Part shown: piece after piece, positions 29,770-53,766 of the stretch
Layout: each line of letters begins with the position of its first letter
Position numbering within the stretch: the first letter of the stretch is position 1
From: Frankia casuarinae
Lineage (GTDB): Bacteria > Actinomycetota > Actinomycetes > Frankiales > Frankiaceae
Assembly: GCF_000013345.1 (NCBI RefSeq)
Contig: NC_007777.1
Span: 930,001 to 994,000 of the forward strand
Reading direction: 5' to 3'
Length of the DNA: 64,000 bases
Notes under the pieces: generated by a model
The model's input: only the letters and a program-made list of their open reading frames with translations
What the model was told of the DNA's origin: nothing
Databases searched by the model: none
Position numbers and translations under genes: made by a program

Positions 29770-31995
29770 ATGAGCCTGACCTCGGACCCGTCCCCGGCTG
29801 CTCCAAAGGCCGCGAAGAGCTCGAAGCGCGTTAACATTCCCGCGCCCGCCACGCCCGACGCTTACGGGATCTCCCGGTCCTCGCCACCGCTGTCCGGCGG
29901 TGGTGTGTCCGGCGGTGGTGTGTCCGGCGGTGGCGCGGCGACCGCCGACGGCACCCCGCCCACGACGCAGACCTCGGTCGATCCGGACCTGGCCGCGGCG
30001 ATGACCGCGGCCAACCAGGCTCGGGACCACCTCCTCGGGCTGCAGTCCGAGGAGGGCTGGTGGAAGGGCGACCTCGAGACGAACGTCACGATCGACGCCG
30101 AACACCTGTTCATGAAGCAGTTCCTCGGCATCCGCACCGAGGAGGAGACCGAGCCGATCGCCCGGTGGGTGCGGTCCCAGCAACTCGCGGACGGCGGCTG
30201 GGCCACGTACTACGGCGGACCGGCCGAGCTGTCCACCACGGTCGAGGCGTACATCGCCCTGCGTCTGGCCGGTGACGAGCCCGACGCCCCGCACATGGCG
30301 GCGGCGGCCGCGCTCATCCGCTCCCAGGGCGGGGTGGCGGCCGCCCGGGTGTTCACCCGCATCTGGCTGGCGACCTTCGGCGAGTGGTCCTGGGACGACG
30401 TGCCCGTCCTGCCGCCGGAACTGATCTTCCTGCCGTCCTGGTTCCCGCTGAACGTCTACGACTTCGGCTGTTGGGCCCGCCAGACGATCGTCGCGTTGAC
30501 GATCGTCGGGTCGCTCCGGCCCGTGCGCGACCTCGGCTTCAGCATCGACGAGATCAAGGTCGCGGCACCCGTGACGCCGCCGAAGCCGGCCCCGCTGCAC
30601 AGCTGGGAAGGCGCCTTCGAGCGGTTGGACGCGATCCTGCACCGCTATGAGCGCCGGCCGATCAAGGTGCTGCGCACCCTGGCGCTGCGCCGGGCCACCG
30701 AGTGGGTCGTCGCCCGCCAGGAGGCCGACGGGTGCTGGGGGGGCATCCAGCCGCCGTGGATCTACTCCGTCATGGCGCTGCATCTCATGGGATACCCCCT
30801 CAACCACCCGGTGATCGCCACGGCGTTCCGGGGAATGGAACGCTACATCATCCGGCGCGAGACCCCGGAGGGGCCGACCGCCCAGATCGAGGCATGCCAG
30901 TCGCCGGTCTGGGACACCGCGCTCGCGGTGGTCGCGCTCTCGGACGCCGGCGTCCCCGCCGACCATCCCGCGATGGTGCGGGCCGGCCGCTGGCTGGTCG
31001 ACGAAGAGGTCAGGGTGGCCGGGGACTGGGCGGTCCGCCGTCCGGCGCTCGCCCCTGGCGGCTGGGCGTTCGAGTTCGACAACGACTTCTACCCGGATAC
31101 CGACGACACCGCCGAGGTCGTGTTGGCGCTGCGTCGCCTGCTCGGTGGCAGCCATGTCACCCCGGGTGGCACCGTCACCCCGAGTGGCAGCGTCACCCCG
31201 GGCGGCACCGCCGAGCTCTCGCCGGCCGCGCGTGACCGCGCCTCCCGCGGCCTCGCGGCGGTCGACCCGCAGCTGGCCGGGGCGATGCGCGCGGCCGCGG
31301 CCCGTGGGGTCGACTGGAGCGTCGGCATGCGGTCGTCGGACGGGGCCTGGGGTGCCTTCGACGCCGACAACGTGCGGACGCTGACAGCGAAGATCCCGTT
31401 CTGCGACTTCGGCGAGGTTGTCGACCCGCCGTCGGCGGACGTCACCGCCCACATCGTGGAGATGCTGGCCGACCTCGGCCGTTCCGACCACCCGATCACC
31501 CGGCGGGCGGTGCAATGGCTGCTGGACAACCAGGAACCGGGCGGCTCCTGGTTCGGCCGGTGGGGGATCAACCACGTCTACGGCACCGGCGCCGTGGTTC
31601 CGGCGCTGATCGCCGCCGGCGTTCCCGCCGACCACCCGGCGATCACAGCCGCGGTGCGCTGGCTGCTGGAGCACCAGTCGCCCGACGGTGGATGGGGTGA
31701 GGACCCACGCTCCTACGACGATCCGGCCTGGATCGGTCGGGGTGAGCTCACCGCCTCGCAGACCGCCTGGGCCCTGCTCGCGCTGCTGGCTGTCGACCCG
31801 CACAGCAAGGCCGTCAAACGGGGAGTGCGCTGGCTGTGCGAGACCCAGCGGCCGGATGGGACCTGGGACGAGCCCCAGTTCACCGGAACCGGTTTCCCCG
31901 GTGACTTCTACCTCAACTACCACCTGTACCGGCTGGTCTTCCCGCTGACCGCGCTCGGTCGGTACGTGACCCTCACCGGGGTGGCCACGCCATGA
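29770..31995 (+). CDS. shc: Squalene-hopene cyclase
   Basis: A 741-residue class II terpene cyclase. It has the catalytic D-T-D-D (D-x-D-D, about residues 441-444), the D-N-x-R-x-L-T-A-K-I-P-F-C-D-F-G-E-V-V-D-P-P-S-A-D-V-T region, and several QW repeats (Q-S-x-E-G-W-W, Q-x-x-D-G-C-W-G-G, Q-x-x-D-G-G-W-G-E, Q-R-P-D-G-T-W-D). It converts squalene to hopene and hopanol at the membrane. A long N-terminal tail with S-G-G-G-V repeats and an inserted Thr/Pro/Gly repeat after the D-x-D-D region (31157-31210) are extra to the family. GAGGGGAG precedes ATG 29770. It overlaps the next gene by four bases. Confidence 0.97.
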   Translation: MSLTSDPSPAAPKAAKSSKRVNIPAPATPDAYGISRSSPPLSGGGVSGGGVSGGGAATADGTPPTTQTSVDPDLAAAMTAANQARDHLLGLQSEEGWWKGDLETNVTIDAEHLFMKQFLGIRTEEETEPIARWVRSQQLADGGWATYYGGPAELSTTVEAYIALRLAGDEPDAPHMAAAAALIRSQGGVAAARVFTRIWLATFGEWSWDDVPVLPPELIFLPSWFPLNVYDFGCWARQTIVALTIVGSLRPVRDLGFSIDEIKVAAPVTPPKPAPLHSWEGAFERLDAILHRYERRPIKVLRTLALRRATEWVVARQEADGCWGGIQPPWIYSVMALHLMGYPLNHPVIATAFRGMERYIIRRETPEGPTAQIEACQSPVWDTALAVVALSDAGVPADHPAMVRAGRWLVDEEVRVAGDWAVRRPALAPGGWAFEFDNDFYPDTDDTAEVVLALRRLLGGSHVTPGGTVTPSGSVTPGGTAELSPAARDRASRGLAAVDPQLAGAMRAAAARGVDWSVGMRSSDGAWGAFDADNVRTLTAKIPFCDFGEVVDPPSADVTAHIVEMLADLGRSDHPITRRAVQWLLDNQEPGGSWFGRWGINHVYGTGAVVPALIAAGVPADHPAITAAVRWLLEHQSPDGGWGEDPRSYDDPAWIGRGELTASQTAWALLALLAVDPHSKAVKRGVRWLCETQRPDGTWDEPQFTGTGFPGDFYLNYHLYRLVFPLTALGRYVTLTGVATP
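29892..29934 (+). repeat. 15-bp tandem repeat in shc 5' end
   Basis: Unit GTCCGGCGGTGGTGT, nearly three copies, encoding S-G-G-G-V in the non-conserved N-terminal tail. Confidence 0.75.
31157..31210 (+). repeat. 18-bp degenerate tandem repeat inside shc
   Basis: About three copies of a TCACCCCGGGTGGCACCG-like unit encode V-T-P-G-G-T / V-T-P-S-G-S, an insertion in a surface loop just after the catalytic D-x-D-D region. Confidence 0.75.
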
Positions 31996-39313: not shown

Positions 39314-40273
39314 TCAGACCGTGGCAGGAGCCGGCCCTTGTTCCAGACGACGTCGGAGAGTAACCGCATTCTCGGCAAGGGCGGAGATGAGATAACCCGG
39401 ACCAGCCAGGGGAAGCAGCGCCACCCCGTCCGCGACGGCCGCTTGCGCGCCGGATTCCGCCCTCTTTGCCGGCACGGACTCCCGCCGGGCTGCCGGAGAG
39501 CCCACCGGATCGGGCCCCGCGACGAGGAGCGACCCGAGGGCACGAGCCGAGCCGAGGAGGGCTGGTCCGGTCAGGCCAGGTATCTCGGGACCGAGGACGA
39601 GATCCTGGCGCAGCAGGGGGGTCGGTTCGGATGGCGGATCCACCTCCGCATGGGCGTCCATGTCCACCCGCAGGGTGCTACGTATCGATCCGGTCGTCTC
39701 CCCGAATCGGCCCAGCACGATCTCCTCGCGCAGCCGTAGCCAGGCCGTGGTCGCCAAGTGCACATCGGTCACCAGGAGATGGTCCGAGCCCCGCGCCGCG
39801 ACGGTCGGCTCCGGCGCGAAGTCCAGCGCGCCACCCGGGGCCACCCGTGCCGACACGGTGAAGCGGGACGGCCCGGGCCCGTGACCGGGCAGGGCCACCG
39901 TCGCGGCCACCGAACGCACCACCAGGCGCACCCCGCTGCCGACGGAGATGTCGAGTCCCAGATCATCACCCGCCAGCGGTCCGGCGGTCGCGTTGACCAG
40001 GTGAACCGTCGCGGTCGGCAGCGCGTCCGCGGATAGCGCGGGCACCGTAGACGGGGCCCTGGTCCGACCAGGGGATGCTCCGGTCTGGCGCAGGACGATC
40101 GGCACGTCGGAGCGCAACTCGATGAGCCTCGCCGTGCCGTCCGGAGCCGATTCGACCCGGATGACGGCCCGTGCCCGTACGGCCGTGCGGCCCGTTCGGG
40201 CGGCCGTGACGAGGGGGCCCTCCGGCCCGGCCGCGACCCCGCCCAGGATGACCCCCCGTCTCATGGCTGCCAT
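39314..40273 (-). CDS. ureD: Urease accessory protein UreD
   Basis: A 319-residue protein of the UreD/UreH family, with L-V-N-A-T-A-G-P-L-A-G-D-D-L, the V-A-P-G-G-A-L-D-F-A-P-E-P-T motif and L-R-L-R-E-E-I-V-L-G-R-F-G-E in the right order. UreD binds apo-urease and, with UreF and UreG, forms the complex that loads nickel and carbamylates the active-site lysine. It is the last gene of the leftward urease cluster. Only 142 bp separate it from ureF, where ureG would normally be. Confidence 0.88.
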   Translation of the reverse strand: MAAMRRGVILGGVAAGPEGPLVTAARTGRTAVRARAVIRVESAPDGTARLIELRSDVPIVLRQTGASPGRTRAPSTVPALSADALPTATVHLVNATAGPLAGDDLGLDISVGSGVRLVVRSVAATVALPGHGPGPSRFTVSARVAPGGALDFAPEPTVAARGSDHLLVTDVHLATTAWLRLREEIVLGRFGETTGSIRSTLRVDMDAHAEVDPPSEPTPLLRQDLVLGPEIPGLTGPALLGSARALGSLLVAGPDPVGSPAARRESVPAKRAESGAQAAVADGVALLPLAGPGYLISALAENAVTLRRRLEQGPAPATV

Positions 40274-40415
40274 GGTGCCAGCCGGGGGCGACGGGATCGG
40301 CCGGCGCCCGCGGGTCCACCCGGCGCCGCGCGATCGCGATCGGCCGAGTAGCCGACCATGCGAGTAGCCGACGGGCCGGGTCTGGGACCGATGACGACGA
40401 GTCGGCGGGCACCGG

Positions 40416-41213
40416 TCAGGATGTGAACATCCGTAGCGCCGTGGTGCGGTGCCGTTCGGCCAGGAGATCGAGGCGGATACCGGTGACGGCGGGCAGCAGC
40501 CGGGGCGGGCGTCGGGAAGCCTCCGCGCCGGCCAGCGCGATCGCCTCGACCTCGTCGGTGAGCCGGGCGAGCACGGCGGTGACGGCCAAGGGGTCCAGCC
40601 CCATCAGGCGGGTCGCGGCGGTCGCGGGTCCGGTGACCGTGGTGTGGGCGGCGACCAGGGCGGCGTCCGAGGGACGCAGGCCCGCGCCCGCGGCGACCAT
40701 GCCTAGTGCGCACGGGTGGTGCGGTGCACGTGGACCGGGCGGCACGGGCCAGGCGGCCCGGCCCGCTCGCAGCAGCGTGCGCCCCTGAGCCCGGCTCGCG
40801 TCGCGTTGGGCGGGGGAGGGCATCCGGGCGTCGAGCTCGGCGTCCAAGGTGGCGATGGTGGTGGGTGTGACGATGGTGACGGGTGTGACGGATGCGGTGG
40901 GGACGTGGTCGGCGTGTGGCGCCCGCGTCGCGGGACCCGGCTGCGTGCCGGCCCGGCAGGCTGCGGCCGCGAAGGCCGCGGCGACCAGGCCGGTCGTGGT
41001 GAGCCGTCCGACGAGGAAGGCCGCCAGGTCGGACAGGTTCGCCAGACTCCCGTCCGTCACCGCTGCTTCAACACCGCCCGAGTGGGCGTGACCTCCCGTG
41101 GGCATCCGGCCGTCCGCGAGGACCAGCAGCGTCGCCCGCCGTCCGGATCGCCCGGTCGGACCAGCCACGTCCTCGGTCCCGCCGTCCCGTGCGGTATCGC
41201 CCTCAATCGTCAC
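40416..41213 (-). CDS. ureF: Urease accessory protein UreF
   Basis: A 265-residue protein. The UreF start motif L-L-V-L-A-D-G-R-M-P-T-G-G-H-A-H-S-G-G-V-E is at about 29-50, and the C-terminal half has the G-L-R-P-S-D-A and R-L-M-G-L-D-P motifs of actinobacterial UreF. A low-complexity insert (about 95-125) is not typical. UreF gates GTP hydrolysis by UreG during nickel insertion. It is separated from ureC by 145 bp that include an 18-bp duplicated sequence. Confidence 0.88.
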   Translation of the reverse strand: MTIEGDTARDGGTEDVAGPTGRSGRRATLLVLADGRMPTGGHAHSGGVEAAVTDGSLANLSDLAAFLVGRLTTTGLVAAAFAAAACRAGTQPGPATRAPHADHVPTASVTPVTIVTPTTIATLDAELDARMPSPAQRDASRAQGRTLLRAGRAAWPVPPGPRAPHHPCALGMVAAGAGLRPSDAALVAAHTTVTGPATAATRLMGLDPLAVTAVLARLTDEVEAIALAGAEASRRPPRLLPAVTGIRLDLLAERHRTTALRMFTS

Positions 41214-41262
41214 CGTAGCCGCTCCCGGCGTTAGTCAGTGTCCGAACCGCTGTGGCGTTTAC

Positions 41263-41298
41263 ATTCATCGGGCCCGGAAGATTCATCGGGCCCGGAAG
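41263..41298. repeat. 18-bp direct repeat between ureC and ureF
   Basis: ATTCATCGGGCCCGGAAG occurs twice in tandem. A further small CAGAAC repeat follows before the ureC stop. No function is apparent. Confidence 0.8.
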
Positions 41299-41358
41299 CC
41301 TCTGGATACGCAGTGACAGCCGTGGTAAGAACCGTCAGAACACTCAGAATCAGAACAT

Positions 41359-43086
41359 TCAGAACAGGAAGTAGCGCTGGGTCATCGGGAGTTCGCTCAC
41401 CGGATCCGCCTCGATCGCCTCACCGTCCACCGTGACGGTGAACGTGTCGGGGTCCACCCGGATGTCCGGTGTCGCGGTGTTCTCGGGAAGATCCGCCTTG
41501 CCGCGGCGGCGCACATCCGCGACCGGCACCACCGGGGTGGCGAGCCCCAGCCGTCCGGGCAGCCCGTCCTCGATCGCCGCCGGGGCAACGAAGATCAACG
41601 ACGACGCGGCGGCCGGACCACGGGCGGCTCCCCACATCGGCCGGGGCAGCACCGGCTGCGGGGTCGGGATGGAGGCGTTCGCATCGCCCATCGCGGCCCA
41701 GGCGATGAACCCGCCCTTGAGGACCAGCGACGGCCGCACCCCGAAGAACGCCGGGTCGTACAGCACCAGGTCGGCGAGCTTGCCGGGCTCCACCGAGCCG
41801 ATCTCCGCGTCCAGGCCGTGCGCCACCGCCGGGCAGATCGTGTACTTGGCGATGTAGCGTCGGGCCCGGGTGTTGTCGGCCCGATCGTCGCCGGCCAGGG
41901 ACCCGCGCCGGAGCTTCATCACATGCGCGGTCTGCCAGGTACGCAGGACGACCTCGCCGATCCGGCCCATCGCCTGCGAGTCCGAACCGATCATCGAGAT
42001 CGCGCCCAGGTCGTGCAGGATGTCCTCGGCGGCGATCGTCGACGGCCGGATCCGGCTCTCGGCGAAGGCCAGGTCCTCGGGCACGCTGGGGTTGAGATGG
42101 TGACAGACCATCAGCATGTCGAGGTGCTCGTCGAGGGTGTTGACGGTGTGCGGGCGGGTCGGATTCGTCGATGACGGCAGCACGTTGCCGGCGGCCGCGA
42201 CCGTGATGATGTCCGGGGCATGCCCGCCGCCGGCCCCCTCGGTGTGGTACGCATGGATCGCCCGGCCGGCGATGGCGGCCAGCGTGTCCTCGACGAAGCC
42301 GGCCTCGTTCAGGGTGTCGGAGTGCAGCGCAACCTGGACGCCGGCGGCGTCGGCGACCCGCAGGCAGGCGTCGATTGCGGCCGGCGTCGTCCCCCAGTCC
42401 TCGTGCAGCTTGAAGCCGGCCGCCCCGGCGCGCAGCTGTTCCCACATCGACTCGTCGCTGACCGTGTTGCCCTTGCCGAGCAGGACAACGTTGACCGGCC
42501 AGTCGTCCAGCGCGGACAGCATCCGCGCCAGGTTCCAGGATCCGGGCGTCACCGTCGTCGCCTTCGTGCCCTCGGCCGGGCCGGTGCCGCCGCCGATCAG
42601 CGTGGTGATGCCGGCGCCCAGCGCCTCCGGAACCTGCTGCGGGCAGATCAGATGGACGTGGCAGTCCACCGCGCCGGCGGTGAGGATCTTCCCGTTACCG
42701 GCGATGATCTCGGTGCCGGGCCCCATCACCAGCTCGGGATGGACGCCGTCCATTGTGTCCGGGTTGCCGGCCTTACCCAGCGCGACGATCCGGCCATCGC
42801 GGATCCCCACGTCGGCCTTGACCACACCCCAGTGGTCGAGAACGACGGCGCCGGTGATGACGAGGTCGGGCGCACCCTCGGCGCGGGTTGCCAGGGACTG
42901 CCCCATCGACTCACGGATGACCTTGCCGCCCCCGAAGACGGCCTCGTCACCGGTCCCGGTGCCCGCCGGCCCGCGGCTGCGGTCCTCCGTCACCTCGATG
43001 AACAGGTCGGTGTCCGCGAGCCGGATACGGTCGCCGACCGTGGGGCCGTACAGCGCCGCGTAGCGGGAGCGGTCGAGTCGGCTCAC
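41359..43086 (-). CDS. ureC: Urease alpha subunit UreC
   Basis: A 575-residue nickel amidohydrolase. The first metal motif C-H-V-H is near residue 142, the lysine to be carbamylated is in [12 protein letters not shown] near 225, and [10 protein letters not shown] and [12 protein letters not shown] follow. The mobile flap has the catalytic histidine in M-V-C-H-H-L. It hydrolyses urea to ammonia and carbamate. The length is normal. It overlaps ureB by four bases. Confidence 0.97.
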
Positions 43087-43463
43087 GAACCCTCTCCCTG
43101 AAAGCCCGATATATCCTCGATCGTCGCGGTGTCCGCAATCCGGGTGCCGCTCGCGGCGTCCAACGGGCCGGCCGATTCCGGCCGCAGGCCCGGCACGACC
43201 CGGGCGCCGGCCAGCGGCACCAGTTCGATCTCGCGTTCCACGCCGGGTTCGAAGCGGACCGCGGTGCCGGCGGGCACCGCGAGCCGGTGGCCCCAGGCAC
43301 TCGCCCGGTCGAAGTCGAGAGCGGGGTTCGCCGCGGCGAAGTGGTAGTGCGAGCCGACCTGCACCGGCCGGTCGCCCATGTTACGGACCAGCACCGTGCG
43401 TACCGGGCGTCCGGCGTTGATCTCGACGGGATCGTCGCCGGTCAGGATCTCCCCGGGGATCAC
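43083..43463 (-). CDS. ureB: Urease beta subunit UreB
   Basis: A 126-residue protein with I-P-G-E-I at the start, the [15 protein letters not shown]-x-x-x-N-P-A-L-x-F-D-R motif and R-F-E-P-G. Urease beta is a structural subunit of the (alpha-beta-gamma)3 enzyme. It overlaps ureA and ureC by four bases each. The last 20 residues extend slightly past typical homologues. Confidence 0.96.
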
Positions 43464-43762
43464 GGGATCGGCCGGTGGACGGTGACCAGCTTGGTGCCGT
43501 CCGGGAAGGTGGCTTCGACCTGCACCTCGCCGAGCATCTCCGGCACGCCCTCCATGACGTCGTCCCGGGTGAGCACGGTTCGCCCGGCGCTCATCAGGTC
43601 CGCGACGCCGCGACCGTCCCGCGCGCCCTCCAGCAGGAACGAGGTGATGATCGCGGTCGCTTCGGGATGGTTCAGCCGCAGCCCACGGGCTCGCCGTTCA
43701 CGGGCGAGCCCGGCCGCCACATGGATCAGCAGTCGTTCCTGTTCATGGGGGCTCAGCAGCAC
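43460..43762 (-). CDS. ureA: Urease gamma subunit UreA
   Basis: A 100-residue protein, the usual UreA length, beginning [15 protein letters not shown] and ending with the V-T-V-H-x-P-I tail. The conserved L-N-H-P-E-A-x-A-x-I and E-G-A-R-D-G motifs are present. The start GTG 43762 is chosen to match the family; the open frame to 43981 adds 73 non-conserved residues. It is the first gene of the ureABC unit; its promoter would lie in the gap up to 44,000. Confidence 0.95.
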
Positions 43763-44384
43763 GAATGCGAAGCCTAGCAGGTCGGGGAATGCCGCCGGCC
43801 TGGTTCGGTTCGGCGCGGTCCACGACATGCCGGCGACGCTCCGGCCCCGATGCTCGTCGGACATATCGGGGCGCAATGTGACGGTCAGGTGAACGGCGAC
43901 GCTCTCGCAACCCAAGAAAAGTTTCGTCCAGGTTTCTGTCCCGACATTGCCGGGGACGCCGCGGGAGCGTGGTTCCGTCAACAGTAAGAATGGAGTTACT
44001 GGTAATTCACCCGGGCGCGATGGGACCGATACGCATCCTTTCTAGCGTCCGGGGAACCGCTCTGGCGTCCGGGGAACCGCTCGGGCCGGTCGGACCGACC
44101 GGCAGGTGGGGGTACGCCCGGAATGAGGCTGACAGGGGTTCGGTTGCTCACACTGGTCTTCGGGCGGGGCCGCGCCGCGGTCGGCATGATCGCCGGGATC
44201 GTCGTGTTCTTCCCGTCCCTGGTCAACATGGTGTTCCACCCGCGTTACCGGCTGGCTCCGGCGCATGGTGGGTAATGACACGTGGCAAACAACAATCACG
44301 CCATCGCCGCCCTCCCGGCGGGTGGTGCCGGTCCGCCGACTCCGGGGACACCCGGCTTGTCTTGGAGTAAAGGAAGTAATGGGG
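43763..44384. other. Region between ureA and the adenine-deaminase-like gene
   Basis: Divergent promoter space of 620 bp. It holds a 21-bp near-perfect direct repeat of GCGTCCGGGGAACCGCTC (44045-44085) and a relic of an ABC permease (44123-44275). The urease promoter is expected near 43,990, where an AT-richer stretch (AACAGTAAGAATGGAGTTAC) lies. Confidence 0.5.
44123..44275 (+). pseudogene. Remnant of an ABC transporter permease
   Basis: A 50-codon frame containing G-M-I-A-G-I-V-V-F-F-P-S-L-V-N-M-V, which resembles the core of nitrate/sulfonate/thiamine-type ABC permeases (I-V-x-F-F-P-x-L-V-N). Flanking sequence on both sides is unrelated. It is a fragment of a lost transporter, perhaps of purine or urea breakdown products given its position. 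Confidence 0.4.
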
Positions 44385-46265
44385 GTGATTTCGCCGTTGG
44401 TCATACGTGATCCCGTTCCGGGCGTGCCGCCATCGGATGCAGACTCGGTGCTGACCGGCAGACGAGAGGCCGCCATGAACGCCGAACGCTCCAGCCGGGG
44501 ACCCCGACTGATGACGGTGTCCGGCGGAGCGTCCCAGCCGACCGTCTCCTCTGCCACGCCCCACCGATCGGCGACCCCGGCCCGCACGGCGGCGTCGGGC
44601 ACGACCTCCACCACCGCTCCCGCGGTCGACCCGCGTGATCCGGCGGCGGCTCCTGGTCCGACCGGGCAGGCACCCGTGGTCGGCGCGGACCTGCTGCGTC
44701 CGTCCGAGGCACAGCTCGCTCGACTGCGTCGGGTGGCCGCGGGTGAGGAGGAAGCCGACCTCGTCATACGCGGTGGGCTTGTCGTCGCCGTCCACAGCGG
44801 TGCCGTGGCCGCGCGGGACATCCTGATCGTGGGGTGCTACATCGCCGCGGTCACGAAGCCGGGAACGTTGGCGGGTCGGCGCTCGCTCGACGCCGCCGGC
44901 AGATTCGTCCTGCCGGCCTATGTCGACGCCGGCCTGCGTGTCGAGGAGACGCTGCTCACTCCGGGGGAACTGGCTCGCCTGATCGTCCCGCGGGGAACCG
45001 TCACCCTGGTGACCGACCCGGCCGTCCTGGTCGCGCTGGGCGGTCTGCGCGGTGTGGATCTGGTGACGGGATCCTCGACCCCGTTGCGGGTGCTGGTCCG
45101 AGCGGGGCAGGTGCCCGGGAGGCAGGTCCCCGGGACCGGGGCGCCCGCAGCCCCGGTCGTCGAGGTGCCTCCGATACCGCCCGCCTCCGCGCTGACCGCG
45201 CTGTCCTCGGTAGGGGCGGCGCCCGTCAAGTCGTCCGCCACGGAGGCCGGCGGTCTGCTGTGGGCGGCCGGCAGCGGGGCCGAGCCGGTCCGGGGCAGGG
45301 CCAGATCGGTCGCGGAGCTTGCCACGGTCGGGCATCTCGATCACGACGTGCGACTCGCGGTCGGTCGGGGGATGGGCCAGATCGACGCCATCCGGCGGTT
45401 CTCCCTGCTCCCCGCCCGCAGGCACGATCTGGAACCCACCCTGGGGTCAATCGCGCCCACCCGCTTCGCTGATCTCCAGGTCGTCTCCTCCCTGGCCGGA
45501 ACCGCGCCGCCCGACGTGGTGGTGGCGGGTGGCCGGATCGCCGCGGAATGCGGCCGACCCCTGTTCGACAACCTCGACATCTCGCCCGCCTGGGCCACCA
45601 GCCGGACACGACTCCCGGCGAACCTGCACGCCGGCTCCTTCACATCACTCGGCCTGCGACGGTCCCACCGGCAGGATGCCAGTGTGGTCGTGGTGAGCGT
45701 CGATCCCCCCCGCGACCCGGGGACGGCGCCGCCCGTCGGTGGACCAGCGCGGGCGTTGCGGATGACCGGGACGGGCCAGGTCTCCGGCCTCTCCCACCCG
45801 CGTGGACTCCGTACCGTGCGGGTGGAACCCACCCTGCGGGACGGCTGGGCGGTAGCCGATCCGTCTCGGGACCTTCTCAAGATCGCAATTTTCGGTCGGG
45901 ACGGCTCCTCGGACGAGATCGACGTCGGGCTGCTCCGCGGGTGCGGGCTGACCCGGGGCGCGCTCGCGGTCACGACGGCGGAGCCGCCGGGGCATCTGAT
46001 CGTCGTCGGGGCGCGGGACGACGACATGGTGACCGCCGCTCGGGCCCTCGAGGGCATGGGCGGGGGCTACGTGGTGGTCGACCAGGGCTGGGTGCGGGCG
46101 GCGTGCGCGCTGCCCCTGCTCGGGGTGATGAGTGACGCACCCTGGGAGGCGGTGCTGGGAGAGCTGGCCGCGGTGGACACGGCCGCAGCCGATCTCGGCT
46201 GCCGGCTGCCGTTCCCGCTGCGCACGCTGGCCGGATGGGGCTGCGCCCTCTACACCCGGCCCTGA
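44385..46265 (+). CDS. Adenine-deaminase-like protein lacking metal ligands
   Basis: A 626-residue protein aligned to adenine deaminase (AdeC type). The amidohydrolase N-terminus is recognisable (L-V-I-R-G-G-L-V-V ... F-V-L-P-A-Y-V-D-A-G-L-R-V-E-E-T-L-L-T-P), as are G-H-L-D-H-D-V near residue 345, G-S-I-A-P-T-R-F-A-D-L, and the whole C-terminal adenine deaminase domain (I-A-I-F, V-G-L-L-R-G-C-G-L, M-G-G-G-Y-V-V-V-D-Q-G, G-V-M-S-D). However, the H-V-H pair is replaced by G-L-R, the D-P-H-E motif by D-P-A-V, and the middle of the barrel is shortened to a Pro/Ala linker. No deaminase activity is expected. GTG 44385 is preferred (AAAGGAAG eight bases upstream); ATG 44379 and 44475 are alternatives. 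Confidence 0.8.
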   Translation: MISPLVIRDPVPGVPPSDADSVLTGRREAAMNAERSSRGPRLMTVSGGASQPTVSSATPHRSATPARTAASGTTSTTAPAVDPRDPAAAPGPTGQAPVVGADLLRPSEAQLARLRRVAAGEEEADLVIRGGLVVAVHSGAVAARDILIVGCYIAAVTKPGTLAGRRSLDAAGRFVLPAYVDAGLRVEETLLTPGELARLIVPRGTVTLVTDPAVLVALGGLRGVDLVTGSSTPLRVLVRAGQVPGRQVPGTGAPAAPVVEVPPIPPASALTALSSVGAAPVKSSATEAGGLLWAAGSGAEPVRGRARSVAELATVGHLDHDVRLAVGRGMGQIDAIRRFSLLPARRHDLEPTLGSIAPTRFADLQVVSSLAGTAPPDVVVAGGRIAAECGRPLFDNLDISPAWATSRTRLPANLHAGSFTSLGLRRSHRQDASVVVVSVDPPRDPGTAPPVGGPARALRMTGTGQVSGLSHPRGLRTVRVEPTLRDGWAVADPSRDLLKIAIFGRDGSSDEIDVGLLRGCGLTRGALAVTTAEPPGHLIVVGARDDDMVTAARALEGMGGGYVVVDQGWVRAACALPLLGVMSDAPWEAVLGELAAVDTAAADLGCRLPFPLRTLAGWGCALYTRP

Positions 46266-46755: not shown

Positions 46756-47670
46756 GTGACGACTAGCGGTGCGACGGCCGTCATGTTCCGTCCACGTACG
46801 GTAGGGGAGGCAGTGGAGATGCTGGCGACCGCCCATGACGCTGGCAGGGCGGTCGATCTGCTGGGCGGCGGCACCGATCTCGTCCCCGCCCTCCGGTCCG
46901 GCGAGCGTCGGCCGGGGGCGGTAGTCGCCCTGCGCCGGGTCCTGGAACTGCGGGTCCGCGGCGCCGGGGCGGATTCGCTCACCGTCGGTGCGGGCGTGAC
47001 TTACACCGACCTCGCGGGCTGGTCACTGTCGCCCGGCCTCGCCCTCGCCGCCCGGGTGGTCGGTTCCGCGCAGATCCGCAACCTCGGCACGGTCGGTGGC
47101 GCGCTGGGCTCGGCACGTCCCACCGGTGACCTGCTCACCTTCCTCACCGCCGCGGACGCCGAGATCCTCGTGGCCTCGCCGCGCGGACCCGGCCGGATGA
47201 CGCTGCCCGCGTTCCTCGCCGACGGGCTCGCCCCCGACGCCCTGGTCACCGCGGTAAGGCTGCCGCGGCCGGCCGGACCGCAGAGCTATCTCAAGATTGG
47301 GGGCAGGCAGGCCGCCTACCAGGCGTTGGTGTCGTGCGCCGTCCTCGTCGACCGGATGCGCCATCGACTGGCCTGCGCGATCGGGGGGGTGGGTCGGCTG
47401 CCGATCCGGATGACCGTCGCCGAGCGGTTCGCACACGACGCGGTGGACTGGTCCGCAGGGGCCGCGTCCTCGTCGGCGGCCCGCCGGTTCGGTGAGCTGG
47501 TAAGCGAGGCGGTCTCGCGGGTCGGGCCGGAGCTCGCGGCGGGTCCGCGGGTCTCCGCCGACTACCGCCGGCATGCTGCCGGCGTGCTGGCCGCCCGGGC
47601 GTTCACCCGATGCCTGGATGCCGCGGGGGCGCCGGTGGACCCCCGAGTCGAGCGGGACGTCCGGCCATGA
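46756..47670 (+). CDS. Xanthine dehydrogenase family FAD-binding subunit
   Basis: A 304-residue CoxM/XdhB-type subunit. The FAD motifs are L-L-G-G-G-T-D-L-V-P (about 35-44) and I-R-N-L-G-T-V-G-G-A-L-G-S-A (about 105-118), and the second domain has Y-L-K-I-G-G-R and A-I-G-G-V. It passes electrons from the iron-sulfur subunit to NAD or another acceptor. GTG 46756 is the start. It overlaps the iron-sulfur gene by four bases in the order FAD, 2Fe-2S, molybdenum subunit, the usual order for three-gene hydroxylases. Confidence 0.92.
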   Translation: MTTSGATAVMFRPRTVGEAVEMLATAHDAGRAVDLLGGGTDLVPALRSGERRPGAVVALRRVLELRVRGAGADSLTVGAGVTYTDLAGWSLSPGLALAARVVGSAQIRNLGTVGGALGSARPTGDLLTFLTAADAEILVASPRGPGRMTLPAFLADGLAPDALVTAVRLPRPAGPQSYLKIGGRQAAYQALVSCAVLVDRMRHRLACAIGGVGRLPIRMTVAERFAHDAVDWSAGAASSSAARRFGELVSEAVSRVGPELAAGPRVSADYRRHAAGVLAARAFTRCLDAAGAPVDPRVERDVRP

Positions 47671-48269
47671 CCGCCCGTTTCGCGAGGGAAGTCCCGGCCG
47701 GACCGCCGGCCGGACCGCCGGCCGGGTCGTCCTGGCCGGACGACGGCGTCGTCGCGCCATATCACCTCCATGTCGACGGCTTCCTGCACACGGTGGCCGG
47801 CGCCTGGATCGGGGACTCCCTGCTCACCGTCCTGCGGGACGTCATCGGGGTGACCTCGGTGAAGGACGCGTGTGAGCAGGGGCGCTGCGGTGCCTGCTCC
47901 GTTCTCCTGGACGGCCGGTTGGTGGCGTCCTGCACGGTGCTCGCCGCGGACGCCAACGACGCCCAGGTGAGCACCGTTGCCGGTCTGAGGACGGCGGGAC
48001 CCGCCAGGGCCGTGCGGGCGGCGTTCCTTGAGGAGGGTGCCGTGCAGTGCGGCTTCTGCACCCCCGGGTTCGTGGTCGCGGTGACGGACCTGCTCACCCG
48101 GCGGCCGGATGCGGACGAGGAGGAGATCAGGGAATCGCTGGCCGGCAACATCTGCCGGTGCACGGGTTACGGCCGGATACTCGCTGCCATCAGAACAGTG
48201 CAGGCTGAGCGGGGCACCCTACTTTCGGGGGATGCACCTGCTCCGCCCCACCGGGGGGTGGGGCGATGA
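47667..48269 (+). CDS. Xanthine dehydrogenase family (2Fe-2S) subunit
   Basis: A 200-residue CoxS/XdhC-type iron-sulfur protein. The plant-type cluster motif C-E-Q-G-R-C-G-A-C with a fourth Cys (about 66-86) and the helical second cluster C-G-F-C-T-P-G ... C-R-C-T-G-Y (about 125-170) are complete. An extra 30-residue N-terminal stretch contains A-G-P-P repeats. The start ATG 47667 overlaps the FAD gene stop. It carries electrons from the molybdenum site to FAD. Confidence 0.95.
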   Translation: MTARFAREVPAGPPAGPPAGSSWPDDGVVAPYHLHVDGFLHTVAGAWIGDSLLTVLRDVIGVTSVKDACEQGRCGACSVLLDGRLVASCTVLAADANDAQVSTVAGLRTAGPARAVRAAFLEEGAVQCGFCTPGFVVAVTDLLTRRPDADEEEIRESLAGNICRCTGYGRILAAIRTVQAERGTLLSGDAPAPPHRGVGR

Positions 48270-50611
48270 GTCTGGGGATCGGTCGTCCGGTGCGTCGTCC
48301 GGATGGGCCGGACAAGGTGACCGGTAGCTTCTCCTACGTTGGTGATCTGCGTGTTCCGGGGATGGTGCACGCCCGCACCCTGCGATCGCCCCATGCCCGG
48401 GCGCGGATCCGGCGCGTCGACGTCGACGCCGCGCGCCGGCTGCCCGGCGTTGTGGGGATGGTGACCGCCGCCGACGTCCCCGGCATGGCCACCTACGGGC
48501 TGATCGTCGCCGACCAGCCGGTGTTCGCCGCGACCGAGATTCGGTACGCAGGGGAGCCGGTCGCCGCCGTGGCCGCGGTTGACGTCCGGACCGCGCGCCG
48601 GGCGCTCGCCGCGATCGAGGTGGACTACGAGCCGCTGGCACCTTCGACCGACCCCGACCGGGTATGGCAGCCGGATGCCGAGCCGCTGCATCCGGCGGGC
48701 AACCTGTACCGCGAGATCGAGCTGCGCCACGGGGATCCCGACGCGCTCGGCCCGGTGGTGGTCGAGGACCAGTACCTCGTCGGGATGCAGGACCAGGCGT
48801 TTCTTGCTCCCGAGGCGGCCCTGGCGATGCCGGCCGCCGATGGTGGGGTGGACCTGCGGGTGGCGACCCAGTGGCTGCATTCGGACCGGGAGCAGATCGC
48901 GGCCTGCCTCGGTCTCCCGGAGGAGCTCGTCCGTCTCACCCTGGCCGGTGTGGGGGGTGCCTTCGGCGGCCGGGAGGACGTCACCCTTCAGATCCACGGC
49001 GCCCTGCTCGCCCGGGCTACGGGGCTTCCGGTGCGGATCGCCTACGACCGGGTTGAGTCCTTCCTGGGCCATCCGCACCGGCATCCGGCCCGGATGTGGT
49101 TCCAGCACAGCGCCACCGCCGACGGAAACCTGGTCAGCGTGCGGGCACGGCTGGTGCTGGATGGCGGTGCCTACGCGTCGTCCTCGCCGGCGGTGCTGGC
49201 GAACGCGGTCACCCATGCCGCGGGTCCGTACCGGGTCCCGAACGCCCACCTGCACGGAGTCGTCGTGCGGACCAACAACCCCCCGTGCGGCGCCATGCGG
49301 GGGTTCGGGGTGCCGCAGGTGACCATCGGTCACGAGGCCCAGATGGACCGGCTGGCCGACGCCCTCGGCATGGATCCGGTGGACCTGCGCGTCCGCAATG
49401 CCGTCCGACCGGGGGATGTGCTGCCCACTGGTCAGGTGATGGGCGCACCGCTGCCGGCGCGGGAGGTCATCGAGGCGGTGGCCTCGCGTCCGCTCCCGCC
49501 GGCGATGCCGGCGAACGTCGCGGTGACCGCGTTGCCCGGCGGCCGACCGGCCGCGGCCGAACCGAGCCGGGTCCGTCGGGGGGTCGGCTACGCCCTGGCC
49601 TACAAGAACCTGCTCTTCTCGGAGGGCATGGACGACTCCTCCGTCGCCCGTGCCCGCCTGGAGCTGGCTGAGGACGGAACGGTACGGGTCCGGCTGCACA
49701 GCGCGTGCGCCGAGGTGGGCCAGGGGTTTGTGACGATCGCGGGGCAGATCGCCCGCACCGAGCTCGGCGTCGAACAGGTCGTGTTGGCGCCCGCGGACAC
49801 CGCGGTCGGCAGTGCCGGATCGACCAGCGCGTCCCGGCAGACCTGGATGAGCGGAGGCGCCGTGCGCGGAGCCTGCGCCGCGGTCGCCGATCGCCTGCTC
49901 GCCCGGGTCGCCCGCACCGCGGGGCTGCCCGCGGAGGTCGTCGAGGCACCTCGACGGACGCTGACCGTCAACGCCGGGGAGATCGTCGGGGTGGAGGCCG
50001 GGTTGCGGGTTCCGCTCGCCGAGGCGCTGGCCGACGGGCCGATCGAAGCGGAGTACACCTTCCACCACCGGCGTACCTCCGCGCTGGACGCCGACGGACA
50101 GGGCGATCCGCACGTGGCCTTCGCCGCCGCGGCGCACCGCGCGGTTGTCGATGTCGATGTCGACCTCGGTCTCGTGCGGGTCGTGTCGATGGCGCTGGCC
50201 CAGGACTGCGGTACGGTGCTCAACCCCCTGGCGCTGCGTGGTCAGGTCGAGGGGGGAACTGCCCAGGGGCTGGGCCTCGCCGTCATGGAGGAGCTGGTCA
50301 CGGTGGACGGGGTGGTGGTCAATCCCACGTTTCACGACTATCTGCTGCCGACCATCGCCGACGTCCCGGACCTCGATTTCGTCGCCGTCACCCATCCGCA
50401 GCCGGATGCGCCCTACGGGGTGAAGGGCGTGGGGGAGGCGCCTACCTGTACCGCGACCCCGGCGATCATCGCGGCGATCCGGGTCGCCGTCGGACGGGAT
50501 CTGCGGCGCGTTCCGGTACGACCCGAGGACCTCGTCACCATCTCTCCGATGACCGCGCCTCCGACGACCGCGCCTCCGACGACGCCGGGACAAGGTGTTC
50601 CGGCGGCATGA
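48266..50611 (+). CDS. Xanthine dehydrogenase family molybdopterin-binding subunit
   Basis: A 781-residue molybdenum hydroxylase large subunit. It begins G-R-P-V-R-R-P-D-G-P-D-K-V-T-G, has G-G-A-F-G-G-R-E-D (about 230-238), the R-G-F-G-V-P-Q cofactor loop (about 348), and the catalytic glutamate in the terminal G-V-K-G-V-G-E-A-P-T motif (about 720-730). The active-site acids fit a purine hydroxylase more than CO dehydrogenase, whose C-S-F-R loop is absent. By context it oxidises hypoxanthine and xanthine to urate. It overlaps allB by four bases. A maturation protein (XdhC-type) is not in the window. Confidence 0.92.
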   Translation: MSLGIGRPVRRPDGPDKVTGSFSYVGDLRVPGMVHARTLRSPHARARIRRVDVDAARRLPGVVGMVTAADVPGMATYGLIVADQPVFAATEIRYAGEPVAAVAAVDVRTARRALAAIEVDYEPLAPSTDPDRVWQPDAEPLHPAGNLYREIELRHGDPDALGPVVVEDQYLVGMQDQAFLAPEAALAMPAADGGVDLRVATQWLHSDREQIAACLGLPEELVRLTLAGVGGAFGGREDVTLQIHGALLARATGLPVRIAYDRVESFLGHPHRHPARMWFQHSATADGNLVSVRARLVLDGGAYASSSPAVLANAVTHAAGPYRVPNAHLHGVVVRTNNPPCGAMRGFGVPQVTIGHEAQMDRLADALGMDPVDLRVRNAVRPGDVLPTGQVMGAPLPAREVIEAVASRPLPPAMPANVAVTALPGGRPAAAEPSRVRRGVGYALAYKNLLFSEGMDDSSVARARLELAEDGTVRVRLHSACAEVGQGFVTIAGQIARTELGVEQVVLAPADTAVGSAGSTSASRQTWMSGGAVRGACAAVADRLLARVARTAGLPAEVVEAPRRTLTVNAGEIVGVEAGLRVPLAEALADGPIEAEYTFHHRRTSALDADGQGDPHVAFAAAAHRAVVDVDVDLGLVRVVSMALAQDCGTVLNPLALRGQVEGGTAQGLGLAVMEELVTVDGVVVNPTFHDYLLPTIADVPDLDFVAVTHPQPDAPYGVKGVGEAPTCTATPAIIAAIRVAVGRDLRRVPVRPEDLVTISPMTAPPTTAPPTTPGQGVPAA

Positions 50612-52215: not shown

Positions 52216-53766
52216 ATGAGCGACGCGCCCGACCTGACGAATCTTGTCGATCTCGCGGCGGCCCGCTTCGGCGGTACGGTCGTGGCCGTCAACGACGAGT
52301 TCTTCGCGTTCGCCGAACGGATGCTGCTGCCCGAACCGCCGATCGTGCGGCCGGGCGTGTTCACCGAACGGGGCCAGTGGACCGACGGTTGGGAGACCCG
52401 TCGGCGGCGGGATCTTCCCGGATCCGACTGGGCCATCATCCGGCTGGGCTCACCCGGCATCGCCCACGCGGTGACCGTGGACACCACCCACTTCACCGGC
52501 AACGCTCCCGGGGCCGTCGAGGTGCACGGCGCCACCCTGCCCGGGTATCCCTCCGCGGCGGAGGTCGCCGAGGAGTCCGTGGCCTGGGTCCCGCTGGTGC
52601 CGCGGACGCCGATCGTGCCGGACGCGGCCAACGTGTTGCCGGTGGCTGACCAGGGCCGGACCCGCATCACCCATCTGCGCCTGACCATCCACCCGGATGG
52701 CGGAGTCGCCCGGCTGCGCGTGCATGGCACGGTGGTGCCGGACCCCCGGATGTTCGACCGGGTGACCTCCGATCTCGCCGCCGCCTACCTGGGCGGTGTC
52801 GTGGTGGCCGCCAGCGACATGCACTACGGTGACCGCCATAACCTGAACGCCTCGGGTGAGGCCCGGGCGATGGGAGAGGGCTGGGAGACCCGCCGGCGCC
52901 GTGGGGACGGCCACGACTGGGCGGTGGTCCGGCTCGCGACGCAGGGCACGATCGTGCGGGCCGAGGTTGACACCCGGCACTTCCGCGGCAACGCGCCCCG
53001 GGCGGTGGCCCTCTGGGCGGCGGACAACCCCGACCTTCTCGACCCCGACGACGTCACCGCGATCACCGAGTGGTACCCGATGCTGCCGCGGACCCGGGTG
53101 CAGCCGAACACCCGTCACCTTTTCGATCTCGAGGTCCCGATCCAGGCCACCCACGTGCGGGTCGACGCGATACCCGACGGCGGGCTGGCGAGGCTGCGGC
53201 TCACCGGCGCTCCGACGCCCGTCGGGCGGGAGGCGCTCGCGATGCGCTGGTTCGACGCGTTGTCCCCGGACGCGGCTCGCGAGGAGCTGCTGGCCTGCTG
53301 CGAGTCCGAGGACTGGGCTGCGGCCGTGGCGGCCCGTCGGCCCTTCGGGACCCTCGCGGCCCTGCTGCCGGCAGCCGAGCAGGAATGGTGGAACCTGCCC
53401 GCATCGGCCTGGCTGGAGGCGTTCACCGCGCATCCCCGGATCGGGGAGCGCCCGGCCCACACGCCCGCCCCGCCCACCACGGCGAGGGCGACCGTGGTGT
53501 CCCTCGACGCCCCCCGACGGGAGCAGGCGGCGATGGACCAGGCGACGGCGGAAGTCAGGGCGGCCTTCGAGCAGGGAAACGCGGCCTACGAGGAGCGCTT
53601 CGGCTACATCTTCCTGGTCCGGGCGGCGGGCCGCGACGCGGAGGAGATGCTCGCTCTGCTGCGGGCACGGCTGGACAACGATCCCGCGGACGAGCTGCGC
53701 ATCGCGGCCGGTCAGCAGGCTGAGATCACGGCCCTGCGCATCAGGCGCCTGATCACCGGCGCCTGA
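52216..53766 (+). CDS. Allantoicase fused to OHCU decarboxylase
   Basis: A 516-residue two-domain protein. Residues 1-335 are allantoicase, with its two repeated modules (each with D-G-W-E-T-R-R-R-R or E-G-W-E-T-R-R-R-R and V-D-T-x-H-F-x-G-N-A-P), which splits allantoate into urea and ureidoglycolate. Residues about 345-516 are 2-oxo-4-hydroxy-4-carboxy-5-ureidoimidazoline (OHCU) decarboxylase, with the catalytic histidine in A-H-P-R-I-G-E and Y-E-E-R-F-G-Y-I-F-L-V-R-A-A-G-R; this step makes S-allantoin. The two activities flank allantoinase in the pathway. AAAGGA precedes ATG 52216. The 247 bp from allB may contain its own promoter. Confidence 0.93.
   Translation: MSDAPDLTNLVDLAAARFGGTVVAVNDEFFAFAERMLLPEPPIVRPGVFTERGQWTDGWETRRRRDLPGSDWAIIRLGSPGIAHAVTVDTTHFTGNAPGAVEVHGATLPGYPSAAEVAEESVAWVPLVPRTPIVPDAANVLPVADQGRTRITHLRLTIHPDGGVARLRVHGTVVPDPRMFDRVTSDLAAAYLGGVVVAASDMHYGDRHNLNASGEARAMGEGWETRRRRGDGHDWAVVRLATQGTIVRAEVDTRHFRGNAPRAVALWAADNPDLLDPDDVTAITEWYPMLPRTRVQPNTRHLFDLEVPIQATHVRVDAIPDGGLARLRLTGAPTPVGREALAMRWFDALSPDAAREELLACCESEDWAAAVAARRPFGTLAALLPAAEQEWWNLPASAWLEAFTAHPRIGERPAHTPAPPTTARATVVSLDAPRREQAAMDQATAEVRAAFEQGNAAYEERFGYIFLVRAAGRDAEEMLALLRARLDNDPADELRIAAGQQAEITALRIRRLITGA

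Follow-up and report, generated by a model that had tools for sequence, protein, structure and literature searches.

The window analysed here is a stretch of 64,000 nucleotides comprising positions 930001-994000 of the 5,433,628-base single-contig genome of the nitrogen-fixing plant symbiont Frankia casuarinae, here called CcI3. A published sqhC primer for CcI3 (PMC4058466) has an exact match at 31511 of the window, in keeping with CcI3 or a strain almost identical to it. Between the genes for urease and those for xanthine dehydrogenase (XDH), it contains a + strand open reading frame that is free of interruptions (44385-46265 in window coordinates) and encodes a relative of adenine deaminase (ADE), here designated dAde. 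The gene, its segments and its neighbours are as follows:

41359..43463, - strand: ureC and ureB, neighbours of dAde
43460..43762, - strand: ureA (urease gamma), the head-to-head neighbour of dAde in CcI3 and its most constant partner
44464..44469, + strand: Shine-Dalgarno-like GAGAGG, 5 nt before ATG 44475
44475..46265, + strand: dAde, a barrel-amputated adenine deaminase pseudoenzyme of 596 aa, start ATG 44475 (open reading frame, profile matches, orthologues)
44475..44681, + strand: Pro/Ala/Ser/Thr-rich leader, residues 1-69 (relaxed, pooled dN/dS 0.54; pLDDT under 40)
44682..45095, + strand: N-terminal ADE segment, residues 70-207, sandwich half and start of the barrel (pooled dN/dS 0.22)
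44931..44939, + strand: G-L-R replacing the metal-binding H-x-H, by sequence comparison with intact ADEs
45015..45026, + strand: D-P-A-V at the D-P-H-E site (D-P-D-C in the closest intact relatives)
45096..45329, + strand: Pro/Ala linker, residues 208-285, in place of the catalytic middle (pooled dN/dS 0.67)
45330..45647, + strand: post-barrel segment and C-terminal sandwich half, residues 286-391 (pooled dN/dS 0.25)
45648..45806, + strand: second linker, residues 392-444 (pooled dN/dS 0.45)
45807..46262, + strand: Adenine_deam_C domain (PF13382), termed Ade_C, residues 445-596 (pooled dN/dS 0.16)
46756..50611, + strand: FAD, Fe-S and Mo subunits of XDH, conserved yet dispensable neighbours

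The true start is most likely ATG 44475, because it is preceded by GAGAGG at a distance of 5 nt and because relatives within the genus carry TTG or GTG in this column, mostly after AAGG-type sites; a start codon occupies the column in each of the ten orthologues of the genus considered. The urease cluster (39314-43981) comprises ureABC together with ureF and ureD-like genes, the latter two being identified by inspection of the sequence, as NCBIfam gave no match. The sole CcI3 ureG above the cut-off is located at 3.14 Mb, and a role of dAde as substitute for a missing UreG was rejected on this ground. Farther downstream, a fused allantoicase and OHCU decarboxylase is encoded at 52216-53766.

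Domain composition and loss of the active centre

In Pfam, dAde matches Adenine_deam_C with 118.6 bits (2.4e-34; cut-off 27) and the amidohydrolase barrel PF01979 with 15.3 bits, which is below the cut-off of 25, so that a complete barrel is not recognised. The score of 136.9 bits against the adenine deaminase model TIGR01178 is far below the curated cut-off of 472.5 and places dAde outside the family as delimited by that model. In a search of the genome, three parts of TIGR01178 match at the dAde locus, namely positions 1-121 (E 2.5e-13), 253-332 (E 1.8e-4) and 400-523 (E 8.8e-19), and positions 122-252 have no match there. The N-terminal, post-barrel and C-terminal regions of ADE are thus all represented, in agreement with the original prediction, which had been made from the window alone and had described both ends of the enzyme as preserved.

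In an alignment of 24 dAde orthologues with 32 intact ADEs, all six metal ligands (HxH, E, H, H, D) are present in each of the 32 intact enzymes; an identical set was listed in a modelling study of YerA (PMC12133300). The copy in the window has none of the six, with G-L-R at the HxH site. No full-length dAde copy contains a complete HxH, the first histidine being retained as H-x-R in some Pseudofrankia-type copies, and in every orthologue the ligand set is incomplete or absent, so that none displays the metal site of an adenine deaminase. The E, H and H of the middle fall into an unalignable linker, in which stray E or H letters stand at non-homologous positions by chance. Measured between the alignment columns that hold residues 207 and 292, the middle has a length of 84 aa in CcI3 and of 29-145 aa in the dAde clade, compared to 153-159 aa in the 32 intact enzymes, and the Pro/Ala linker is unconserved in the clade, whereas the middle of the intact homologues is uniform. 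The exchange of H-V-H for G-L-R and the reduction of the catalytic middle to a Pro/Ala linker, both noticed beforehand, are therefore confirmed. The change from D-P-H-E to D-P-A-V had also been read correctly, but its use as a sign of a dead enzyme does not hold: since the closest intact relatives carry DPDC or DPVC where other ADEs carry DPHE, the loss of H and E is a trait of the subfamily, and DPAV by itself does not mark an inactive enzyme. An assembly error or a hidden barrel-bearing frame was ruled out, as the 24 aligned orthologues, from separate assemblies, share the same state.

Judged by its residues, dAde is presumably incapable of metal-dependent deamination. It derives from an active enzyme family, lacks the catalytic residues and is subject to purifying selection (see below), and is in this sense a pseudoenzyme. 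As specific roles, purine sensor, regulator or scaffold had been put forward, all of them hypothetical. We regard a nucleobase sensor as improbable: its position in a locus of purine and urea catabolism and its homology to a purine enzyme would suit dAde for this task, but the would-be base-binding pocket has been deleted together with the metal site and the greater part of the barrel, and no DNA-binding or other output domain was recognised in the protein by Pfam or the adenine deaminase family model. Purine sensing via the old pocket in particular is unlikely, because what was lost is precisely the barrel that binds the nucleobase.

Distribution and origin

Orthologues of dAde were found in 32 of the 35 Frankiaceae genomes searched, including those of Frankia torreyi, F. 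canadensis, Parafrankia, Protofrankia and Pseudofrankia. Among about 360 genomes from elsewhere in the class, none yielded an orthologue, the only matches being distant intact ADEs. The three Frankiaceae genomes without dAde (G007, G015, G018) also have no match for urease or XDH; their lack of the gene says little, because two of them are incomplete (85% and 63%) and one is small (only 3.0 Mb). In the phylogenetic tree, all inactive sequences form a single clade (support 0.998), whose sister group consists of intact ADE paralogues of Frankiaceae (L062-L064) and the sequence L142, the joint clade having a support of 1.0. The deepest branch of the dAde clade, L103, has a C-terminal tail resembling that of the intact paralogue (seen as L058), as would be expected of an early stage.

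A true adenine deaminase elsewhere in the genome, the search for which had been proposed as a check, was not found: with TIGR01178, CcI3 has no other match of note and hence no intact homologue. That dAde might be the partner of a functional ADE present alongside it in the cell was rejected for CcI3 for this reason. Five CcI3 proteins match the adenosine deaminase family (PF00962), and any of these might supply adenine deamination. In another genome (G024), the intact-type ADE paralogue is seemingly split over two frames and devoid of its middle (L067:5196-7467), which is possibly a second, independent decay.

Selection on the retained domains

The dN/dS values were pooled over eight independent close pairs using Nei-Gojobori counts, which take no account of the pronounced base bias of these genomes; differences between parts of the gene can therefore be trusted more than the values as such. 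The three retained domains have values of 0.16-0.25, Ade_C being the most constrained, and taken together they differ clearly from the leader and linkers (0.20 vs 0.55; Fisher p 4e-18). The constraint on the retained domains is similar to that on allantoinase and on the FAD subunit of XDH, both in the neighbourhood, and weaker than that on ureC. The idea that a dead enzyme has been kept is upheld by these values, which show no neutral decay, and by the family-wide conservation of a protein devoid of ligands and barrel core. The absence of stop codons, from which retention had been concluded, is real, but it is weak evidence in G+C-rich DNA; the argument therefore rests on dN/dS and on the 32 genomes. 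A decaying gene or an assembly artefact, to which the lost active centre and the variable linkers could point, is hardly conceivable in view of the intact frame and of an identical lesion combined with strong purifying selection across 32 independent assemblies. With near certainty, dAde can be considered a true, ancient and selectively retained pseudoenzyme.

Thirty-four residues are invariant in the dAde clade and occur in at most one fifth of the intact enzymes. Half of them (17 of 34) are located in Ade_C, for example E526, M528, W539 and C544. These residues suggest a new function; some of the 34 are already common to the sister enzymes, and thus not all are innovations of the dAde clade.

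Predicted structure

AlphaFold models were calculated for the protein of the window and for the shortest orthologue (L096, 467 aa). Both are confident in Ade_C only, with a pLDDT below 50 for the N-terminal half, and because the input consisted of 24 sequences, Ade_C is the only part to be relied on. With the window model, Foldseek returned 3nqb, 3t81 and 9jql as top matches. In VIA-align, the Ade_C region of the L096 model superimposes on residues 386-579 of 3nqb with a Z score of 18.1 and an rmsd of 2.7 over 180 residues; the low-confidence N-terminal part of this model gave no usable match. The structure prediction recommended previously was thus informative for Ade_C, whose fold matches 3nqb, but not for the N-terminal half. 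Ade_C of the known enzyme crystallises by itself, and a role as lid has been proposed for it (PMC12133300).

An active enzyme of a new kind, in which Ade_C and the sandwich would have evolved a different, metal-independent activity, might account for the clade-specific invariant residues of Ade_C. We consider this very unlikely, as polar catalytic residues clustered in the manner of an active site were not identified and Ade_C is held to be non-catalytic in the known enzyme (PMC12133300).

Conservation of the neighbourhood

The constant element of the neighbourhood is urease, whose subunit genes adjoin dAde in every genome whose contig extends that far. The linkage to XDH is less strict: dAde is retained in Frankia sp. 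R82, whose genome yields no match for XDH, and also in strain CIT1, where XDH is on a different contig and has an internal stop. Because XDH is missing in the one strain and moved in the other, a functional unit with XDH only was rejected. In most relatives, genes for a Rieske-type oxygenase and a HATPase_c_4 protein lie on the opposite strand between dAde and XDH (L092:11668-14219); they are missing in CcI3. The location between urease and XDH emphasised by the original prediction is therefore correct for CcI3 but not general, also because a transporter precedes the gene in most relatives. In Candidatus Frankia meridionalis and Protofrankia coriariae (L094, L100), ureC and/or xdhD are split over several frames, which may be due to sequencing errors or reflect real pseudogenes; the dAde frame is intact in both. 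Upstream of dAde, only weak or chance-level matches were obtained in a promoter scan and in a loose search for boxes of nitrogen regulators.

In most Frankia, Parafrankia and Pseudofrankia genomes, four ABC-transporter genes, coding for an NMT1/THI5-like binding protein, an ATPase and two permeases, are located between ureA and dAde on the strand of the latter (e.g. L092:5800-9450). This arrangement raises the question of whether dAde assists or regulates the transporter, for instance as a substrate-handling or gating subunit. In the large genomes of the three genera, the order binding protein-ATPase-permease-permease-dAde on one strand makes dAde the fifth gene, as in most Frankiaceae. Outside the family, the most closely related intact ADE is likewise located behind an ABC operon that includes a PnrA-like binding protein, so the pairing of ADE and transporter may be ancestral. 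CcI3 and the Protofrankia/cluster-2 group, however, have no transporter beside dAde, and the protein is still under purifying selection there; nor does the NMT1-like binding protein have a match elsewhere in the CcI3 genome. We therefore consider a transporter subunit unlikely, albeit less so than a sensor. In the region L162:2517-10415, the intact sister ADE is preceded by genes for a GntR regulator, a PnrA-like binding protein, an ABC ATPase and a permease, which likely form a purine uptake operon.

Proposed evolution and role of dAde

In the scenario we favour, an ADE of the subfamily that is still intact in Pseudofrankia-type genomes would have lost, in the common ancestor of the Frankiaceae, the HxH motif and most of the TIM barrel, including the stretch that carried the bridging Glu, both later His residues and the region of the catalytic Asp. 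The remnant, in which flexible Pro/Ala linkers connect the N-terminal segment, the post-barrel sandwich segment and the lid domain Ade_C, would then have come under new selection. Most likely it would serve the adjacent urease/ureide nitrogen-recycling locus as a binding or assembly partner without catalytic activity, Ade_C being its working surface. A role in binding or assembly is favoured because of the new constraint in Ade_C and the persistence beside urease.

Overall, a retained pseudoenzyme that most probably acts for the urease/purine-nitrogen locus as a partner in binding or assembly is the best explanation, and we give this role and partner about an even chance. The fuller version, according to which ligands and most of the TIM-barrel core were deleted before the radiation of the Frankiaceae and lid and sandwich became a new module serving urease/ureide nitrogen recycling in plant symbionts, is more tentative, and that the partner or ligand itself belongs to the urease/purine-nitrogen pathway is a slightly more doubtful assumption still. 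The linkage to urease could reflect an ancestral conserved gene order rather than function. In the literature collection searched, no paper dealt with an adenine deaminase-like protein of Frankia or with an ADE pseudoenzyme, and the main texts of the CcI3 transcriptome and oxygen papers mention neither adenine deaminase nor urease.

Comparison with known systems

Adenine deaminase Ade (TIGR01178; Atu4426, PDB 3nqb/3t81; C-terminal domain of YerA, 9jql) is collinear with dAde in the N-terminal, post-barrel and Ade_C regions, but dAde has no metal ligand, a linker instead of the catalytic middle and a score far below the family cut-off. Within its sister clade, the intact Frankiaceae paralogues L062, L063 and L064 as well as L142 retain HLH or HIH, E, H, H and D and a full middle of 154 aa, all of which dAde does not. 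An automated label "adenine deaminase" would therefore be wrong for dAde.

The nearest documented precedent for the putative role of dAde is the pseudo-dihydroorotase (pDHO) of the Pseudomonas ATCase complex, which is likewise an inactive amidohydrolase relative beside an enzyme of nitrogen metabolism. This pDHO is required for ATCase activity and holds its partner enzyme in the active complex; it reportedly equals active DHOase in size and fold, and a related fungal pDHO domain has been described as devoid of the zinc ligands (PMC7053772). The partner of pDHO has been demonstrated, whereas that of dAde is putative. Known inactive amidohydrolases such as pDHO retain the barrel; in dAde the barrel core itself is deleted, and the lid domain, which is otherwise known from an active enzyme, is under strong selection in nearly the whole symbiont family. 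Ade_C function can thus be tested in dAde free of catalysis, and the protein draws attention to an as yet uncharacterised component of the Frankia locus for urease and purine nitrogen.
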